16,929 nt of DNA from Deltaproteobacteria bacterium. Its GTDB lineage: Bacteria > Myxococcota > UBA796 > SXON01. Below are positions 1,694 through 16,929 of the stretch, piece after piece. The notes beneath the pieces are model-generated. The model was given only the letters and a program-made list of their open reading frames with translations, made no database searches and was not told the DNA's origin. The position numbers were made by a program, and so were the translations under genes. The DNA is taken from positions 1-16,929 of the forward strand of contig CANKNP010000072.1 of the NCBI GenBank assembly GCA_947483545.1. The letters are read 5' to 3'. Positions within the stretch are counted from its first letter, which is position 1, and each line of letters opens with the position of its first letter.

Positions 1694-3866
1694 CGGCCTC
1701 CCCGAGCTTGCGCAGACCCACCTCACCCTGCTCGTCGCCTTGACGCCCCTCTGCGTGTATCGCTGGCGCCTCGCCCACATCTACGAGCCCGAGGTGGACC
1801 TGTTCGAGATGAGCGGCGGGGAGCTCCAGTTCTGGCTGCCCGTGGGCCTGATCGGCGCTGTTTTGCTCCGCTGGATGCCGAAACCGGGTAGGCCCGCCCT
1901 CGCAATGCTCTTTCAAGGGGTGTGTTTCGCGTTGCTCTTGCTCGGGGCCGCGGAGCTCGCGTTCTTCGAGGTGACCGGCACCCGCACGGATTGGGACGCG
2001 CTGGGCTTTCTGGTAGGCGACCTCGACAATGCGCTGCCCGTCGCCCTGAGCGAGGTGAAAGCCGGACAGGTGCTGGCCGCGGCCTTTGGGGCGGTCCTCT
2101 GCTCCCTCCCGCTGCGGCTACGCATCCCCTACGATCCCGCCTGGGGCTTCGTCGTCGGGCTCCCCTCGCTGGCGCTGGTGATCTGGCTCCCTCAGGGGCG
2201 AACGATGTTCCGCGGCCCGCTCCGGGAGCTGCAGCCTTCGCTGGCGGAGCACCTGTACTGGGATGGCATTGACCGGATCGGGGACACGACCACCCCACCC
2301 GAGGTTGCCGACGTACAGGCCCGAAAAGTCGAGCGCATCTCCGACGCGCGCCCCAACATCGTGCTCATCCTGCTTGAATCCGTTGGATGGAGCGCGACCT
2401 CGCTCGGGGGCGACGTGGCGACCACGCCGAACCTCGCCCGCTTCGCGGAGCACGGGCTGCTCGCCGAGCACATGTACGCGGTCGTCCCGCACACCTCGAA
2501 GGCCCTGGTGAGCACCCTCTGCGGAGATTGGCCGTTGCTTCGAACGGATATCGCTGAGGCTCGCCCGGGGGGTACGCCCGGTCGGTGCTTGCCCGAGCTC
2601 CTGCGGGATCTCGGATACTCCACCGCGTTCTTCCAGACCGCGAATGAGGACTTTGAGAGCCGAACCGCCCTCGTCCATCAATTCGGTTTTCAGTTTTTCC
2701 GCGGCAGGGGCAGTTTTATGACAGGCCCAGGGGGCGCGAAGATCGTGCCGATCAACTACTTCGGAATCCCAGATCGACACATGGTCGCCCCCAGCGTGGC
2801 TTGGGCGACGCGTCAGCAATCCCCGTTCTTCGCGACGTATCTGACGCTCGCGACCCACCACGACTATGGCACCATCCCCGGCTGGACGTACCAGACGATC
2901 CCCGGCAAGTCCGGGCGCCAGGCGAAGTACCTCAACAACGTCCGCTACATCGACGATTTCGTGAACCGGGTGGTCACGGGCTACCAGAACGCCAACCTCG
3001 CCGAGAACACGGTCTTCGTGGTGGTGGGCGATCACGGCGAGGCCTTCGGCGAGCACAACCGTTGGGTTCACGACATGGTCATTTACGAGGAGGGGCTGCA
3101 TGTGCCCTTCCTGATGTGGGGCGCGGGCATTGAGCGTGGGGAGATCGAGGGAAATCGCCAACAGATCGACGTCCTACCCACGCTGGTAGGAGTCGCGGGG
3201 GGCCAGCTCTCCGGCAGTGTGCGTGGCTCCGATCTGCGAGCCCCCGTGCCCGACCGGGTCTTGCGCCACTCCTGTTGGCGCTCCCACCGCTGCCTCGCCC
3301 AACGCTCCGCGGATCGGAAAAAGGTGATTGACCATTACAACGATGGCCCCATGCAGCTCTTCGACCTGCACGTCGACCCGTTTGAGCGCACGAACCTGAT
3401 CTCGGAGACGACGGATCGGGAGGCCCGACGCGCCGAGTTGAGGGGCTGGCGCTCGATGGTGAACGGGCGGTACGACGAGATGGTTCAGCGCTGGCTCGCC
3501 CACATGCAGCGCCCGAACGATCGGCCCGCGCAACACTCCTGGCCCGCCATGGACATGATGGGCTGCACGACCACACAGAATTTCGCGGTTCCGGGGCAGA
3601 CCTTCTGGCTCGAGTGCGCCTGGCGCCCGCCCGCCGAGATCGTCGCGTCTCTACGCGTCTCTGTCCGGTTTGCCGGCCAACTCAGCCATTCGAGGCCCCT
3701 CGCCGGGGTGTGGCCTACCTGGAAGTGGATCCCCGGCTGGACCGTCGCCGACAGCGTGCCCATCCGCGTGCCCGACGCGACGGTCGAAGGTGACTTCCCG
3801 ATCGAGGTGAGTTGGGACGGCGCCGACTGGGCAACGGTCGGGACGATGCCGGTGATGCTGGACTGA
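1653..3866 (+). CDS. LtaS-like membrane sulfatase-fold phosphoglycerol/phosphoethanolamine-type transferase
   Basis: This 737-residue inner-membrane enzyme belongs to the alkaline-phosphatase superfamily (LtaS/OpgB/sulfatase clan). About five hydrophobic segments (residues 24-36, 58-74, 82-105, 140-156, 164-180) precede a periplasmic catalytic domain at about 233-600. PNIVLILLES places the metal ligand at E242. HTSKA gives T281 at the nucleophile position, and there is no Cys-x-Pro-x-Arg formylglycine motif, so a transferase is likelier than a true sulfatase. GDHGEAFGEH (459-468) supplies the Asp/His metal ligands. A beta-rich tail (about 620-737) is beyond the usual LtaS end and unassigned. 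The first possible start is TTG at 1653 with GGGAG seven bases upstream, but both lie in a hairpin repeat, so the first ~14 residues are uncertain. The stop abuts the stop of the convergent cystathionine lyase with no gap. The acceptor molecule is unknown. Confidence 0.85.
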   Translation: MKTLPSWRLQRWLPGLPELAQTHLTLLVALTPLCVYRWRLAHIYEPEVDLFEMSGGELQFWLPVGLIGAVLLRWMPKPGRPALAMLFQGVCFALLLLGAAELAFFEVTGTRTDWDALGFLVGDLDNALPVALSEVKAGQVLAAAFGAVLCSLPLRLRIPYDPAWGFVVGLPSLALVIWLPQGRTMFRGPLRELQPSLAEHLYWDGIDRIGDTTTPPEVADVQARKVERISDARPNIVLILLESVGWSATSLGGDVATTPNLARFAEHGLLAEHMYAVVPHTSKALVSTLCGDWPLLRTDIAEARPGGTPGRCLPELLRDLGYSTAFFQTANEDFESRTALVHQFGFQFFRGRGSFMTGPGGAKIVPINYFGIPDRHMVAPSVAWATRQQSPFFATYLTLATHHDYGTIPGWTYQTIPGKSGRQAKYLNNVRYIDDFVNRVVTGYQNANLAENTVFVVVGDHGEAFGEHNRWVHDMVIYEEGLHVPFLMWGAGIERGEIEGNRQQIDVLPTLVGVAGGQLSGSVRGSDLRAPVPDRVLRHSCWRSHRCLAQRSADRKKVIDHYNDGPMQLFDLHVDPFERTNLISETTDREARRAELRGWRSMVNGRYDEMVQRWLAHMQRPNDRPAQHSWPAMDMMGCTTTQNFAVPGQTFWLECAWRPPAEIVASLRVSVRFAGQLSHSRPLAGVWPTWKWIPGWTVADSVPIRVPDATVEGDFPIEVSWDGADWATVGTMPVMLD

Positions 3867-7415: not shown

Positions 7416-8239
7416 CCCCGACGCCAGGGTCCGACGACGACCGGGTAGAGCGCCAGCATGCCCCAGGAGAACATGCCGAGGTGCATGGTCAGCGCGATCC
7501 CGAGGTGCATGCAGATGCCGCCGACAGCCCAGAAGCGGGCCCAGCGGGTGAAGATCAGCGGGGAGGCGAGCTCCAGGGCGACGGTCCCCCAGCCCAAGAC
7601 ACGCAACGGCGCGAACCATGCAAGCGCAGCGTGCGGGTCGAGGTGACCGGCGAGGGGGTCGGCCATGAGCCGGTAGAGCACAGGCGTGCCGTTGGTGGCC
7701 AGCCAGGCAGGCTGCGAGCTGAGCTTGGCGAACCCCGACGTCATGTAGACGATCACCAGCAGCAAGCGGAGCGTGTCCGACGGCCAGGCGCGGACGGCGT
7801 CGGCGCGTTTGCCAAGTAGCGAAAAACGAAGGTGTGAGCCAGAGAAGAGCAACACGAGCAGCGCCGTGCGCAGCAGACGATCGATCGCCCGGTCGCCCGG
7901 CGAGTACATGTGCCCGAGCTGAGCGTAGGCCAGGGTCCCCATGAGGATCGCGGGACGGGTCCCGACCCCAAGGGCCGCCAGGGTGAAGGCCCCGATCGCA
8001 ACGATCCAGGCGATGCGCCCTCCTTCGGGGAGCGCGTCGATCCACACGTGCTGGGTCTGCAGGCTGGAGAGCCCGCCAAGAGCGTAGGGTCGGAAGAGCA
8101 CGTCGACCAGCCCGAGCTGGCCCACCCGCACAAGATCCAGCAGGATCGCCACGGAGACCCCGATGCGAACGAGGGCGAGCGCTCGGGCGTCCTCCAGGCG
8201 GGCGCAGCGCAGGACCCACCATTGCCAAGCGCGGGTCAC
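7382..8239 (-). CDS. HTTM-domain multi-pass membrane protein
   Basis: This 285-residue protein is strongly hydrophobic, with several membrane segments (about 20-40, 77-97, 123-133, 157-170, 215-230, 235-270). The stretch YMTSGFAKL at 165-173 and the C-terminal HLGIALTMHLGMFSWGMLALYP are typical of HTTM proteins, the bacterial relatives of the membrane part of vitamin-K-dependent gamma-carboxylase. No biochemical activity is established for most bacterial members, so no reaction is assigned. The start is GTG at 8239, overlapping the stop of the upstream gene as GTGA; translation is probably coupled. The open frame further upstream is antisense shadow. The 3' end overlaps the convergent FHA-regulator gene by 34 nt. 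Confidence 0.8.
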   Translation of the reverse strand: MTRAWQWWVLRCARLEDARALALVRIGVSVAILLDLVRVGQLGLVDVLFRPYALGGLSSLQTQHVWIDALPEGGRIAWIVAIGAFTLAALGVGTRPAILMGTLAYAQLGHMYSPGDRAIDRLLRTALLVLLFSGSHLRFSLLGKRADAVRAWPSDTLRLLLVIVYMTSGFAKLSSQPAWLATNGTPVLYRLMADPLAGHLDPHAALAWFAPLRVLGWGTVALELASPLIFTRWARFWAVGGICMHLGIALTMHLGMFSWGMLALYPVVVGPWRRGQVLSSTTSPS

Positions 8240-8781
8240 AAGGGCGCCGGCTCCCAGTCCGGGGCGGCGAGCATGAACGCGTGGTGGGTCGTGGCGTCGT
8301 CTCCTGGAAAGTTCGCGATGGTGCACCGCAGTTCGACGGTGCGGGTATCCGGCCACTCGGCGCGCACCCGACCGGCCACATACCGGCCAAGGCCCTTCCA
8401 GTTCGGCGACGACCGCCTGCTGCACGTGGATTCGACCACCGGTCGAACCCGACGATTCTGAAATTGGCCGGCGAGCCAGGCGTGGGCAGGGTCGACGCTG
8501 CGGAAGAGCAGCACGCCGTCCGCAAAGACCTCGAGCCGCCGGATCTCGTCGGGACCGTCGGCGTACAGGTACCAGAGCTGGCTCACCCGGAAGGTGCGCA
8601 GCACGGGCGCGAACACCATGAACATGGGCTGGCGGACATAGCGGTCGGTCGCGGACGCCAGGCTCTCGAGCATGCTCTCGCCCCCATCCCGGTAGGCACG
8701 TTCGTCATCGTCGGCTCCGGGGCGTCCGAACGCCGGGCCTGGCAGGGCCATACCGATCAGGACGGCGTGCACCCCGAGCAA
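8236..8781 (-). CDS. Membrane-anchored partner protein of the HTTM protein, unknown function
   Basis: The first recognisable start is TTG at 8781 (181 residues), but the frame is open to 8857. The upstream codons encode LPPARIDTLRAVA, which would complete a signal anchor ending near GMALPGPAFG, so the true start may be further out, possibly a CTG near 8820 or 8838. After the hydrophobic N-terminus come an acidic stretch and a soluble region with MFMVFAPVLRTF, LWYLYADG and NWKGLGRYVAG. Many HTTM genes have a downstream or upstream partner with a MFAP-type motif followed by a beta-sandwich; this looks like one, by inference. It probably faces the periplasm and acts with the HTTM protein. No catalytic motif is visible. 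Confidence 0.65.
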   Translation of the reverse strand: MLGVHAVLIGMALPGPAFGRPGADDDERAYRDGGESMLESLASATDRYVRQPMFMVFAPVLRTFRVSQLWYLYADGPDEIRRLEVFADGVLLFRSVDPAHAWLAGQFQNRRVRPVVESTCSRRSSPNWKGLGRYVAGRVRAEWPDTRTVELRCTIANFPGDDATTHHAFMLAAPDWEPAPL

Positions 8782-8871: not shown

Positions 8872-8985
8872 GTCGCTGCCGGCGGCCGAGCTCTGCGCAA
8901 CCAGCAACGTCCTAAGTCACTGGAGGGACTTGACCCGGCGCCGGGCTGCCCCCCACCCGCACCGTTCCAGGTGGAAGGCGGCGGA
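8872..8985 (+). repeat. Interspersed repeat, copy A
   Basis: This block matches the reverse complement of 15029-15148. Shared sub-blocks include CGTCCTAAG, CTGGA, CCGGGCTG and GCACCGTT-CAGGTGGAAGGCGGCGG at the right end. Translated in the frame starting at 8872 it gives QQRPKSLEG and APFQVEGGG, against QHRPKPLEV and APLQVEGGG in copy B. It lies in the 312-bp gap before the exported-protein gene; the rest of that gap holds a hairpin (8959-9032) and no gene that I can support. Confidence 0.8.
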
Positions 8986-9032
8986 CCGGCGTCTTCGACG
9001 GGCCGACCGTCTTCCACCGGTTGGAACGGTGC
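8959..9032. repeat. Long imperfect hairpin upstream of the exported-protein gene
   Basis: GCACCGTTCCA at 8959-8969 pairs with TGGAACGGTGC at 9022-9032. After a 3-nt bulge, GGTGGAAGGCGG (8970-8981) pairs with its near-complement around 9008-9019 (CGTCTTCCACC), leaving a loop of about 25 nt. The left arm is the conserved right end of interspersed repeat copy A, so the hairpin may be part of that element or of a 5' leader. No T-run follows. Confidence 0.7.
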
Positions 9033-9150
9033 AAAAGAACCGTCGATCCGGGCGCGAGGTTCGCCGAGCGCACGGATCGCCGGCCTGTTGGATCTGCGAG
9101 GGATCCCAACCCCGAGGCCCACAGGTACAAGGGGTGACCCCGAGGTCATC

Positions 9151-10368
9151 ATGCTTCTCTCCCTGGTTCTCCCGGCTTTCGCTCTCACCGTCCCCCTCCG
9201 CGCCACCTTCAAGGAGACCGTCGAGCCCGGCGAGCAGGCGCTCGCGTCGGGCACGATCACGGCCGTGGCGGCTGCCTACAGCACGACCTCGGGCGCCCGG
9301 TTCACCGTCAGCGATGACGAGCTCACGGCAAACAAGCGCGAAGCCTCGGGCAGCGGCGGCCTCTCGTTCGAGGGCAGCCCGGCCGACTCGGTGCGCTCCT
9401 GGGCCATCTACTACATCGCCGCCGACGGAGAGGTGCTCAGCGATCCGGACATCGTGACCATGTCCTTCGATTCGAGCGGCACCGGCAACGTCGCGGCGGG
9501 GACCGGCAAGCTGCTGGCAGCGAGCGATGTGGTGACGCTCGACCCGAGCGGCTTTGGGGTGCAGGCCAAGAACAAGGATGGTGACAAGGACGACACCGGC
9601 ATCATCATCGACGTCTTCCTCGACGGCGACACCGACGGACTTGGCGACATCGACAACATGGGTCCGCCCGTGCCTCCCGGCTCGCCCACCTGGGCGTACT
9701 TCGTGAACGACACCTACAAGGTGACCCTGCTCGACAGCAGCGGACGTGTGCGCGCCGAGCACTCCTGCACGCTGGACGCCACGCCAAAGACGGTCGCGGG
9801 CACCGCGAACCAGCAGACCATGGTTGGCCAGTGCACCGACGACCCCAGCGGGACCGAGGTTCGCCGCCTGCAGCTCAAGCTCGGTGAGAAGCACATGCAC
9901 TTCACGGTCGACGTGGCGAGCCCGCTCTTCGCCGAGGGTGCGGCGGAGAAGACCTGCGACAAGGCCGGGGTCTGCACGGAAGGTGCCACGGCCCTCGGCG
10001 GCAAGATCGAGGTGTCCCTCGACGGCTCGCCGCTCTGGACCCATACCTTGGCCGTCAACGAGACCGCCTTCGACCTGCCCTTCTCCTTCACAGAGGTCTC
10101 CGACGGCCTGGATGGCAGCGTTGCCATCGACATCTACACGCCGACCGCGGTGACCTGGACGGTGAAGGACGGCGTGGCGACCGCCACGGACGCCACCGGT
10201 GTCGTCGCCTCGTTCAACCTCGACGACGTCGGACTCACGCCCACCGGCGACATCACGGCCAAGGACTGGACCGCAGAGAGCGCCGCCGCCCCGAAGGCGG
10301 ATTCGACCGAGCCTCTTTCCCTCTCGACGGCCAGCTCCACCGCGCCTACGGTCAAGCTCCAGCGTTGA
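9151..10368 (+). CDS. Exported acidic protein of unknown function
   Basis: I do not recognise the family. The 405-residue product begins MLLSLVLPAFALTV, a short hydrophobic signal-like segment without the usual N-terminal lysines, so export is likely but not certain. The mature part is rich in Asp, Thr, Ser and Gly and mostly looks beta-stranded. Two Asp clusters (D143-D148 in NKDGDKDD and D158-D168 in DGDTDGLGDID) resemble calcium-binding loops. Four cysteines (206, 228, 269, 275) could form two disulfides, consistent with a periplasmic or surface location. The ATG at 9151 has GAGG five bases upstream; the open frame back to 8851 runs through a repeat and is not used. It lies 12 nt before the kinase gene on the same strand, so the two are probably cotranscribed and this protein may serve the kinase as an extracellular partner (inference). 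Confidence 0.75.
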   Translation: MLLSLVLPAFALTVPLRATFKETVEPGEQALASGTITAVAAAYSTTSGARFTVSDDELTANKREASGSGGLSFEGSPADSVRSWAIYYIAADGEVLSDPDIVTMSFDSSGTGNVAAGTGKLLAASDVVTLDPSGFGVQAKNKDGDKDDTGIIIDVFLDGDTDGLGDIDNMGPPVPPGSPTWAYFVNDTYKVTLLDSSGRVRAEHSCTLDATPKTVAGTANQQTMVGQCTDDPSGTEVRRLQLKLGEKHMHFTVDVASPLFAEGAAEKTCDKAGVCTEGATALGGKIEVSLDGSPLWTHTLAVNETAFDLPFSFTEVSDGLDGSVAIDIYTPTAVTWTVKDGVATATDATGVVASFNLDDVGLTPTGDITAKDWTAESAAAPKADSTEPLSLSTASSTAPTVKLQR

Positions 10369-14279: not shown

Positions 14280-14900
14280 ATGCCCGTCCAACAACGCGTC
14301 GCGCAGACCTCGCCGGTCTCCACCCCAACGGCCGAGCAACAAGCGACCCCGCCGGACCGGCAGTCGCGGTACGGCAATGGATTCCTGGCGACGCAGCTCG
14401 CCAACGAACCTGGGCGCGAGGCGCTGAGCCTGGATGCGCCAGCGACCGGTCCGACCACCGAACAGGCCCGGCAGCCTGAGCAGGTCGCAACGCCTGTGGC
14501 GCCGCTCAAGGTGCGAAACCCGCTCCCGGTGGTGCAGGGCGAGCAGCGGCGCACTGTGCTGGGCGTGCAGATCATCGGGCGCGGGGTCTCGCCGAGCGCG
14601 CTGGACCTGGAGGCCACGCAGCCGCGCGCGAGCGTGCCGCAACATGGCTGGAACAACCTCGGTACCGAGCGAGGCGTGGTGCGGGGGCGGTGGATGCTCA
14701 TCACCAACCCGACCCGCGGCACTCCCCCGAGCTTCGTGGAATGGGCACCCGGGGCCAACCCGGCCGCTGCCGACGAGGCCATGCAGGCGACGCTGAGCGC
14801 GATGTTGACCGCATGGGACGCCGTCGCCCCACCGTTCCAGCAGGATTCAGCGACAGAAGCGACGAAGGAGGGCCTGAGGGCCCTGGGCTACCACGACTAA
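14280..14900 (+). CDS. Hypothetical protein with Gln/Pro/Thr-rich N-terminus
   Basis: I do not recognise the 206-residue product. It has no signal peptide or membrane segment. The first ~85 residues are rich in Gln, Pro, Thr and Ala and probably disordered, but contain RYGNGFLATQL (30-40), which resembles the GN-type short helix near the N-terminus of some contractile-injection cargo or DUF4157 proteins (weak inference from memory). The second half looks folded, with TVLGVQIIGRG, RGVVRGRWMLITNP and a C-terminal helical part with AMLTAWDAV. The ATG at 14280 has only a weak ribosome site. Codon use and high third-position GC agree with its neighbours. A tandem repeat array starts 10 nt after its stop. 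Confidence 0.6.
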   Translation: MPVQQRVAQTSPVSTPTAEQQATPPDRQSRYGNGFLATQLANEPGREALSLDAPATGPTTEQARQPEQVATPVAPLKVRNPLPVVQGEQRRTVLGVQIIGRGVSPSALDLEATQPRASVPQHGWNNLGTERGVVRGRWMLITNPTRGTPPSFVEWAPGANPAAADEAMQATLSAMLTAWDAVAPPFQQDSATEATKEGLRALGYHD

Positions 14901-14909
14901 ACGAAAGGC

Positions 14910-15026
14910 GGCGCGCGCGCCGCTGGGCTTGGGCCGGGCCGGGGTGGTCAACGCGGCGCGCGCGCCGCTGGGCTTGGGCCGGGCCGGGGTGGTCAACGCG
15001 GCGCGCGCGCCGCTGGGCTTGGGCCG
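14910..15026. repeat. Tandem 45-bp repeat, about 2.6 copies
   Basis: The unit begins with the palindrome GGCGCGCGCGCC and ends GGGGTGGTCAACGC. Copies at 14910-14954 and 14955-14999 are identical, and a third is cut after 27 bp at 15000-15026. The identity shows recent expansion. The array begins just after the stop of the 14280 gene and runs up to interspersed repeat copy B. Each palindrome could form a hairpin, but no T-run follows. Confidence 0.9.
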
Positions 15027-15190
15027 TGCCCGCCGCCTTCCACCTGTAACGGTGCGGTCAGGGGCCAGCCCGGCTCCAAGTCACGCACTTCCAGGGGCTT
15101 AGGACGGTGTTGTTTGTTCAGCGCCCGGGCTGGCCCCCCAGCGGCAACGAAACCCGCGCCGATGGGCCCCGATTTCCCCTCAACGCTCAC
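14993..15190 (-). CDS. Possible small protein coupled to comEC, containing repeat copy B
   Basis: A GTG at 15190 overlaps the comEC stop as GTGA and opens a 65-codon frame, beginning MSVEGKSGPIGAGF and ending at TGA 14993-14995. Most of it is repeat copy B, and the same frame is shared with copy A at 8872. Several differences between the copies are in third codon positions, especially in the first five codons (both VAAGG). That hints at coding selection, but the end of the frame runs into the tandem repeat, and copy A has no stop-bounded equivalent. It may be a chance open frame in GC-rich DNA. Confidence 0.25.
   Translation of the reverse strand: MSVEGKSGPIGAGFVAAGGPARALNKQHRPKPLEVRDLEPGWPLTAPLQVEGGGHGPSPAARAPR
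15029..15148 (-). repeat. Interspersed repeat, copy B
   Basis: This is the inverted partner of 8872-8985. A perfect 13-bp inverted repeat, GGGGCCAGCCCGG at 15061-15073 and CCGGGCTGGCCCC at 15125-15137, encloses a 51-nt loop holding the conserved CTTAGGACG. The copy lies directly downstream of the comEC stop. I see no other gene in 14901-15186 apart from the doubtful small frame. Confidence 0.8.
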
Positions 15191-16929
15191 TCCGGCCGAT
15201 CCGGCAAATCCACCCGTAGATCCCGCCCATCTGTCGTCACCACCACCGTGCCATCCCGATCCGTGCGGTAGACCTTCCGCCCCCGCAAGTGCGCGAGCGC
15301 TTCGGGGTTTGGGTGTCGAAATCGATTGTCCTCGCCGCAGGAAATGACCGCCACGGAAGGATTGACCGCCGTGACGAACGGCCACGACGACGACGTCCGA
15401 CTCCCGTGATGCGCAACCTTGAGCACATCCGCAGCCAACTCCCGGGGCCGCTCGGTCAGCAACTCCGCTTCGCCCTCCCGCTCGATATCGCCCGTGAAAA
15501 GGAACCGCCGACCTCCAAACGTCAGGCGAAAAACCAGGCTCTCGTCGTTCACGGGATCCCGGGAGGTGCCAGTCCAACCGAGCATCGGGTGCAACAGTGT
15601 GGCGGGTTTGGGCAGCTCCGCGAAGCTCACCCGGTCCGCGAGACCCAGCAGCGCCGCAAACTCGGCCTCCCCCGAGCGAGGCGCCCGCGGCACGACGAGC
15701 GCATCCACCTGAAGGTTCGCCAACAGGGCCTCGATCCCACCGTAGTGATCGGGGTGGGGGTGGCTCACGATCACCCGGTCCAGGTGGCGAACTCCCTGGC
15801 GTCGCAGGGTCTCGAGCATCCCCTCGGCGGAGGGGCCCGCGTCCACGACCCACACCTTGCCATCCGGGAACGTCACGATCGCGCCGTCCCCCTGCCCGAT
15901 GGCGAGGAATTGAACGACCAGTCGCCCGTCGATCGGCGGGACCGGCCAACGCATGCCGAGCGCGACAATCAGGAGGATCATCACGAGCCAGGGGCGACGC
16001 GGCACGAGCGCGGCGAAGACGAGGAGCAGGGCGCCGCCTGGGCCGACGGCCGGGTGCCAGGGGTCCACGTCGAGCGGGGCGAGCACCTGGAGCGCGAGGT
16101 CGGTCGCGTTGTCGGCGAGGGTGAAGGCCACGGCGGACAGTGCCGAGGAGGTGTCGGAGAGCGCGAAGCCGGCGACCGCGGCGGGGGTCGCCAGGGCGCC
16201 GAGGAGCGGGCCGGCCAGCAGGTTCGTCAACGGGGAGAGCGGCGAGAGGGTCTGGAAGGTCCAGGCGATCACGGGCAGGGTGCCGAAGGTGGCGCCGAGC
16301 GTCGCGCCGATGCTGCTCGCCAGCGTGCGGACGAGCCAGGGCGCGTCGGGAGGGACCCAGCGGGTGACGCGGTGGGACCACAAGAGGATGCCTGCGATGG
16401 CGGAGAAAGAGAGCTGAAAGCCGAGGTGATCGACGGCGCTGGGATCCAGGACGAGCGTGCCGCAGAGCGCGAGGGCCAGCCCCTCCCAGGCCCCGAGCGA
16501 CACCCCTGCGGCACGGCAAATGCCCGCGGCGGAAGCCAGGATCGCCGCGCGAACGGCCGATGGCGGCGAGCCTGCCGCGTGGGTGAACGCGAACGCCGCA
16601 ACAGCGGCACCGAACGCCGCGGGCCATCGCAGGCCGCCGTACGGCCAAAACAGAGCCAGGGGCCGGCACAGCATCCCGACCGCCCACCAGGCCACGCCGG
16701 CGACGAGCCCGACTTGCAGCCCCGACACCGCGATCAAGTGCCAGGTCCCCGTCCTTCGGAGCAGGTCGCGCTCGGCGTCGGGGACCAAAGCACCCGGCTG
16801 CCCTGCCATCGCCGCGATCAGCCCGCCATGCACCAGCCCGCTCGCCGGCGACGCCACCCGGTCGATCCCCGTGGCCAGGAAGTCCCGCACGGTGAACCGG
16901 TGCGACACGTTCGCCCGCGCCGCTGCCCA
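15187..16929 (-). CDS. comEC: ComEC/Rec2-family DNA uptake channel, 5' end cut by the window edge
   Basis: ComEC carries single-stranded DNA across the inner membrane during natural transformation. About 580 residues are visible. Counting from an in-frame GTG at 16908, the competence domain is at about 20-320, with GTWHLIAVSGLQVG (54-67) and many membrane segments. The C-terminal metallo-beta-lactamase-like domain follows at about 325-573, with GQGDG (338-342), SHPHPDH (382-388), FTGDIE (471-476) and AHHGS (499-503). The full Zn-ligand set is present. The frame remains open to base 16929 with no clear start, and the N-terminal OB-like part of the family is missing, so the gene must continue past the edge. 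The family usually has SGLH where this has SGLQ. The neighbours are not competence genes. The stop overlaps a possible small GTG frame. Confidence 0.93.
   Translation of the reverse strand, partial: WAAARANVSHRFTVRDFLATGIDRVASPASGLVHGGLIAAMAGQPGALVPDAERDLLRRTGTWHLIAVSGLQVGLVAGVAWWAVGMLCRPLALFWPYGGLRWPAAFGAAVAAFAFTHAAGSPPSAVRAAILASAAGICRAAGVSLGAWEGLALALCGTLVLDPSAVDHLGFQLSFSAIAGILLWSHRVTRWVPPDAPWLVRTLASSIGATLGATFGTLPVIAWTFQTLSPLSPLTNLLAGPLLGALATPAAVAGFALSDTSSALSAVAFTLADNATDLALQVLAPLDVDPWHPAVGPGGALLLVFAALVPRRPWLVMILLIVALGMRWPVPPIDGRLVVQFLAIGQGDGAIVTFPDGKVWVVDAGPSAEGMLETLRRQGVRHLDRVIVSHPHPDHYGGIEALLANLQVDALVVPRAPRSGEAEFAALLGLADRVSFAELPKPATLLHPMLGWTGTSRDPVNDESLVFRLTFGGRRFLFTGDIEREGEAELLTERPRELAADVLKVAHHGSRTSSSWPFVTAVNPSVAVISCGEDNRFRHPNPEALAHLRGRKVYRTDRDGTVVVTTDGRDLRVDLPDRPE

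Follow-up and report, generated by a model that had tools for sequence, protein, structure and literature searches.

Two inverted blocks in a Myxococcota contig as probable decayed copies of a dispersed, three-hairpin repeat

Two related blocks in one window

Two short blocks of a deltaproteobacterial contig resemble each other although they lie about 6 kb apart and in opposite orientation, which raises the question of what kind of unit they derive from. A first-pass annotation of the analysed window (the whole stretch of 16,929 nucleotides) had offered three readings, namely a small coding module, a structured RNA and a non-autonomous mobile element. The relatedness of the two blocks, at positions 8872-8985 on the plus strand and 15029-15148 on the minus strand, was confirmed: their local alignment scored 93, whereas the best of 2000 dinucleotide-shuffled pairs scored 34, and the observation stands because the first score is so far above the second. 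A repeat finder placed the longest inverted arms of the window at 8886-8984 and 15030-15128 (99 nt, 79% complementary), and the near-identity noted at the right end of both blocks was borne out.

The first block lies between divergent ORFs (8236-8781, minus strand, on its left and 9151-10368, plus strand, on its right), neither of which has a Pfam match. The second adjoins the end of a ComEC-like gene (15187-16905, minus strand), whose start is cut by the window and whose product has its best named relative in a Myxococcales MAG (68% identity), which points to Myxococcota as the source; a possible ORF (14280-14900, plus strand) lies on the other side. A Pfam scan of the ten predicted proteins (E up to 0.001) hit no transposase family, in agreement with the earlier remark that none is encoded nearby.

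The blocks belong to a unit of about 207 bp

Both blocks are best read, and probably correctly so, as worn copies of a protein-free, dispersed repeat of ~207 bp with three hairpins. The border that had been placed at 8985 cuts through this unit: copy 1 extends to about 9083, as a locus in another Deltaproteobacteria MAG (L001, at a contig edge) matches window positions 8957-9083 at 88%. This locus is one of three stretches of the genome collection that were hit by a pattern of 21 letters, 20 of them fixed, taken from the right end. We built a family model, R1, from an alignment (A1) of 33 copies (13 from genome G017 and 20 from genome G021) plus copy 1; L001, which is outside the training set, scored 106.9 bits with R1, and the other two stretches (L002 and L003) had no match to the model.

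Units are ~204-209 nt long and follow the consensus order H1, H2, A-rich linker and H3, with H3 ending at the 3' end of the unit. Consensus H1 runs from GGGGCCA to TGGCCCC and encloses a loop with CAAACA and CTGAAAT, while consensus H2 is of the type GGCGTTCC...GGAACGCC. Across lineages the stems vary, and the unpaired CAAACA and CTGAAAT motifs and the A-rich linker are kept.

Copy 1 occupies 8880..9083 on the plus strand and matches R1 positions 1-207 (116.1 bits, E 2.8e-28, a score that is not independent since copy 1 is one of the 34 training sequences). Its first domain, H1 (8880..8955, plus strand, by alignment to R1), is partly degraded: what is left of the basal stem accompanies the loop core (CAACCA / CTGGAGG), and the 5' arm deviates from the family consensus. 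The sequence itself delimits hairpin H2 at 8959..9032 on the same strand (GCACCGTTCC ... GGAACGGTGC; helices 4 and 5 in the fold of the family) and hairpin H3 at 9040..9083, also on the plus strand (CCGTCGATCCGGGCGC GAGGTTCGCCGA GCGCACGGATCGCCGG; helix 6).

Copy 2 turned out to be truncated. Its H1 domain (15055..15137, minus strand), with a 13-bp basal stem GGGGCCAGCCCGG / CCGGGCTGGCCCC, was recognised by R1, which had not been trained on it (46.2 bits, E 7.5e-11), and direct reading and pairwise alignment with copy 1 placed the left part of H2 at 15030..15055 on the minus strand. The remainder of H2 and the entire H3 are missing: after GGCGGCGG comes a 45-bp tandem array (14908..15030; 2.7 copies, 98% matches, Tandem Repeats Finder) that replaces the right half of the copy. 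With copy 1 diverged and copy 2 truncated, both are presumably inert. The tandem array itself contains a GCGGCGCGCGCGCCGC palindrome.

Two kinds of departure from the standard unit were seen elsewhere. Variants in G021 (L104 and L113, also L090 and L100, where the contig ends) carry ~120 extra nt in the H3 loop, and this insert, nearly identical between loci, could represent an additional domain or another repeat nested in the element. On the minus strand of L056 (1004-1025), a lone copy of the first ~19 nt of the element (GGGGGGCCAGCCCGGGCGC) is followed by unrelated sequence, perhaps a 3'-truncated insertion.

Pairing is conserved while the letters change

The covariance test that the annotation had suggested favoured its structured reading, as the hairpins covary. 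Compensatory double changes occurred in 23 of the 50 base pairs of A1, and 96.7% of cells were paired, as compared with 30-49% when the partners were slid. The covariation score was 0.324; slid partners gave 0.091 at best, and the score was not reached in any of 500 shuffles. Related sequences can exceed shuffles in such a comparison, and deriving the structure from A1 itself favours it over the slid versions. Double changes were seen in 15 of 27 pairs of H2 (helices 4 and 5) and in 4 of 15 pairs of H3 (helix 6). For the basal stem of H1 (positions 8-13) we used the 29 distinct arm pairs found among 56 copies (one from the window, 22 from G017, 24 from G021 and nine from G005), excluding copy 1 because of its degraded 5' arm and L001, which has no H1; 122 of 174 cells paired, and the best of 1000 shuffles reached 115.

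A narrow and patchy distribution

The annotation had also proposed counting copies in related genomes, and this search revealed many in G017, G021 and G005. At E values up to 1e-4, R1 matched four of the 22 genomes of the taxonomic family of G017, with at least 77 matches in G017, at least 112 in G021, 15 in G005 and one in G001; these counts include partial matches and possibly antisense ones, as a hairpin arm can match both ways, and 110 candidates were scored per genome. The other 18 genomes of the family had no match at this threshold. Across 86 relatives, with E up to 0.01, matches appeared in the same four genomes and in a fifth, G011, whose weak partial match (26.9 bits, E 0.0017) covered only the tip of H2, vanished at E up to 1e-4 and was not counted as a copy. 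Nine copies from G005, none of them used for training, scored 54-69 bits; their H2 letters are quite different, and they keep the three-domain layout at a length of mostly 208 nt.

Two further searches bear on this pattern. A DNA search of 93 genomes (relatives of G001; E up to 0.01) found matches in 28 of them, strong only in G001, G017 and G021, with many copies in G017 and G021 (40 of 266 and 40 of 237 candidates scored); twelve of the weak matches in other relatives, read around the end of H3, looked by eye unrelated and mostly coding. An exact pattern of the H1 core was found in four of 377 genomes of the phylum, 66 times in G021, 32 times in G017, 15 times in G005 and once in G253. The same pattern read backwards, as a control, matched seven times in six other genomes and never in these four, so that single matches can be put down to background, unlike those of the three multi-copy genomes; the locus of the one match in G253 (L145) had no R1 match. 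G001 lacks an H1-core match because its sole copy has no H1. The block of copy 2 had no match among 72,556 plasmid records, nor did the exact pattern match any viral contig.

The element therefore has a narrow, patchy distribution and reaches high copy numbers in some carriers. All carriers are fragmented assemblies, in which many contigs end in the element, and absences are for this reason weak evidence; the element itself seems to break the assemblies, given the many contigs that end inside copies.

Copies lie between genes, within a gene and next to each other

Many dispersed copies, together with one insertion whose orthologous sites lack the element, agree with the annotation's reading as a non-autonomous mobile element. 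Among the top 30 matches in G017, the 29 after the query's own were 90-98% identical to the query copy, and this identity indicates that the spread in this genome was recent. Of 70 copy groups, 62 were clear of genes predicted with a simple ORF caller and eight shared more than 30 nt with a predicted ORF; the groups stood in every orientation to neighbouring genes and at no fixed position.

In one G017 locus (L068), a copy lies antisense in a 656-residue ABC-transporter ORF, where it separates the membrane domain (25-293) from the ATPase domain (430-564). The corresponding 69-residue block was absent from all 14 homologous proteins aligned (14 of the 147 found, leaving aside the query's own record, P0090); P0091, also without the block, was 95% identical over half of the query in the best local alignment. 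At the DNA level, the flanks of this locus matched 18 of the 22 family genomes, G017 itself included, and none of the seven other orthologous loci examined (of 17) carried an R1 match. Since homologous proteins and orthologous loci are free of the element, this copy was inserted, and in frame. It is the one insertion checked against orthologous sites, none of which was close enough to give the exact target. At another locus, L080, a ketoacyl-synthase ORF reads through a copy near the end of the ORF.

Neighbouring copies on the same strand form head-to-tail arrays in eight of 29 loci of G021 (L090, L091, L094, L095, L109, L112, L113 and L115), two of 30 of G017 (L062 and L071) and one of nine of G005 (L125). 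The junctions are alike across arrays, with ATCGGCGG directly followed by GCCA (GCAG in L115). A regular expression picked 31 copies with both flanks. The unit was followed by C or G in all of them, and either position of the dinucleotide ahead of GGGCCA held G in 25; these counts are not fully independent, because nine of the copies belong to arrays (five stand after another copy and four before one). The same 31 copies showed no excess of words common to both flanks (mean 3.68 versus 3.64 when permuted), a test that a 1-3 bp target duplication inside the run of G could escape. Reading the ends revealed no terminal inverted repeats, the 5' end (GGGGCCAGCC or GGGGCCAATCC) not being complementary to the 3' end (ATCGGCGG).

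A proposed mechanism and the search for an enzyme

To account for the established copies, covarying fold, arrays and single intragenic insertion, we propose a non-autonomous mobile repeat of ~207 bp that encodes no protein, consists of three hairpin domains and spreads by insertion, an explanation that we consider likely. The element would insert at new sites, mostly intergenic and next to G/C bases, with no target duplication detected, and insertion directly behind the 3' end of a resident copy would produce the head-to-tail arrays. An enzyme supplied in trans would recognise the element in its folded form, most likely that of single-stranded hairpin DNA, as has been proposed for the action of Y1-type enzymes on REPs; we place this enzyme in trans because no reverse transcriptase, Y1 transposase or neighbouring mobility gene is linked to the copies. 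As ~207 nt equal 69 codons and several frames are open in most G017 copies, the element could lodge in genes without a frameshift. A bolder version, which we advance as speculation with the odds clearly against it, would make the element a bacterial counterpart of SINEs, that is, a selfish element without a protein of its own, in which the folded nucleic acid, with its three covarying hairpins and the conserved loop core of H1, would itself be the recognised substrate of transposition. An enzyme of the host or of a mobile element, so far linked to no repeat, would act on it in trans and insert it beside G/C and onto its own 3' end, and the element would survive in genes through its 69-codon length and open antisense frames.

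Matches to Y1_Tnp were absent from G017, the genome with near-identical copies, and exceeded the cut-off four times in G005 and once each in G021 and G001, while RVT_1 had no match in G017, G005 and G001 and three matches at two loci in G021; these absences come from assemblies that may be incomplete. No element was near any of the 11 reverse-transcriptase or Y1 loci searched (nine of them Y1). We therefore found no linkage to a Y1 transposase, which had no match in G017 and was unlinked elsewhere. Nor did a transposase-like gene recur beside the copies, in flanks of up to 1.5 kb from 69 loci of these fragmented assemblies. Comparing the flanks gave 12 locus pairs with some translated similarity, of which L094/L099 are the same place and several reflect the tail of the H3 variant. 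The flanking ORFs of the largest other set (L069, L076 and L095) were rejected as a mobility gene, for they carry acidic repeats of the DxDxDG / DGIDNNCDG type, which we take to be MopE-like metal-binding motifs; no tRNA was found at this set.

Alternative explanations

The strongest competitor is a structured RNA that serves a cellular function (regulatory, processing or terminator-like) and exists in many copies, dispersed by happenstance and with its fold kept by selection on the RNA. The conservation of the unpaired motifs and of the A-rich linker across lineages, as the stems change, would suit such a role, and folding of both strands gave the given strand the lower energy in 20 of 20 G021 copies. 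This preference is weak in G017 (9 of 13) and fails in G005 (2 of 9), and we dropped the claim of an RNA strand because both-strand folding clearly favours the given strand only in G021. A count of G-T versus A-C cells (150 versus 8) was also discarded as strand evidence, since predicting the structure on the given strand biases it. The lack of a fixed position or orientation to genes in the 70 copy groups, the arrays, the antisense copy within a coding gene and the 18 same-family genomes without a match at E up to 1e-4 all argue against this explanation, which we regard as unlikely.

Considerably less probable is an origin as retrotransposed copies of a retron, an origin suggested earlier for msDNA-like repeats in Nannocystis exedens that Lampson and Rice reportedly described in 1997. 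GC-rich hairpins, chromosomal repetition and a source in what is probably the same broad bacterial group fit this idea. RVT_1 has matches in only one of the four carriers and is unlinked there, which leaves a connection to a retron or group II intron reverse transcriptase unsupported. The a1 and a2 ends of retrons are complementary, unlike the 5' and 3' ends of the element by direct reading. Eight loci searched against Rfam (E up to 1) gave a single sub-threshold CRISPR-repeat match (23.2 bits, gathering threshold 39) on a variant copy in L099; in the whole window, five sub-threshold matches (E up to 5) were all outside both copies, so that no Rfam family was recognised in the copies searched.

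A small coding module common to both loci is very improbable. The reading frame that the annotation saw in both blocks is indeed present as letters, being open through copy 1 and, from the copy start, in 19 of 22 G017 and 19 of 24 G021 copies; a coding signal does not accompany it. All three reverse frames are open as well in 20-21 of the 22 G017 copies, the G005 consensus has a TAG stop with one of nine G005 copies open, and some copies have indels. Substitutions at codon positions 1/2/3 numbered 115/78/64 in G017 (22 copies), 234/212/256 in G021 (24 copies) and 38/31/40 in G005 (nine copies), with no third-position excess and thus no coding signature in this variant of the suggested coding test. 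The shared QxRPK-like residues would instead be by-products of the conserved nucleotides GCGCTG.GCAAACA and CTGAAAT. Chance similarity from high G+C can be dismissed, even with ~70% G+C in the matched stretches, as 0/2000 shuffled pairs reached the score and the model independently matched copy 2 at the E value given above.

Comparison with known repeats

Bacteria typically carry small non-autonomous repeats in the form of shorter hairpins, and for some of these a partner enzyme is known; the non-autonomous repeat that we favour here is longer. According to PMC10969869, Rickettsia palindromic elements (RPEs) measure ~150 bp and insert in frame, with 44 in genes of R. conorii. Compared by description only, the two are alike in being short, palindromic, repeated and protein-free and in sitting in frame within a host ORF (here in one case, L068), whereas the ~207-bp element has three separate hairpin domains, is mostly intergenic, forms head-to-tail arrays and occurs in other bacteria. 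In its sole verified intragenic case the element acts like an RPE, and an in-frame position is unusual for it.

With MITEs and other small repeats (RUP, BOX, ERIC and RU-1/2/3) it shares being small, non-autonomous, dispersed, mostly intergenic and structured. Like a classical MITE it is short, protein-free, multi-copy and dispersed (~207 bp; 77 and 112 matches, as minimum counts, in G017 and G021), but it differs in having neither terminal inverted repeats nor a visible target duplication, and no parent transposon was found in the flanks of 69 loci. REPs and REPINs with their RAYT enzymes likewise are high-copy, non-autonomous hairpins. According to PMC3733652, REPs measure 20-40 bp and bear on one end an unpaired tag, GTAG or CGTC, and CGTC REPs apparently have no dedicated transposase. 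At ~204-209 nt, the element has neither tag at its ends, although many copies contain CGTC in the tip of H2; it also differs in that G017 has no Y1_Tnp match and that no element lies beside any of the nine Y1 loci elsewhere. The Nannocystis exedens repeats resemble it as repeated hairpin DNA of probably related bacteria, and they are set apart, by description rather than sequence, in that three of the four carriers have no reverse transcriptase match.

The element is best read as a new family of non-autonomous, structured, mobile repeats that resembles the in-frame RPEs and is longer. The open-access literature that we found does not describe it, in a search of which part returned mostly eukaryotic work, so that novelty is unproven; a text search of PMC2267715 found no mention of Myxococc, Geobacter, deltaproteobacteria or in-frame. 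What distinguishes the family is that three domains keep pairing while their letters are rewritten between lineages, that copies form head-to-tail arrays and that in-frame entry into genes is possible. Four carriers with 1 to 112 model matches, next to 18 relatives with none, offer a natural system in which to seek the mobilising enzyme.

Other repeats

A second repeat set lies at 1392-1693 of the window. It comprises a 67-nt direct repeat (1392-1458 and 1574-1640, 90%) and two 53-nt palindromic units (1526-1578 and 1641-1693, 89%) with GGGAGCCAGCGTTGAAG arms. The set had a weak R1 score (15.9 bits) and no match in G001, G005, G017 or G021. The arm pattern GGGAGCCAGCGTTGAAG matched five times in the window (four times at 1392-1693 and once, weakly, at 3483), versus 0.10 expected. 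G017 contains another repeat of ~138 nt, separate from the element, whose copies at L072:2787-2924 and L079:2354-2490 are 95% alike.
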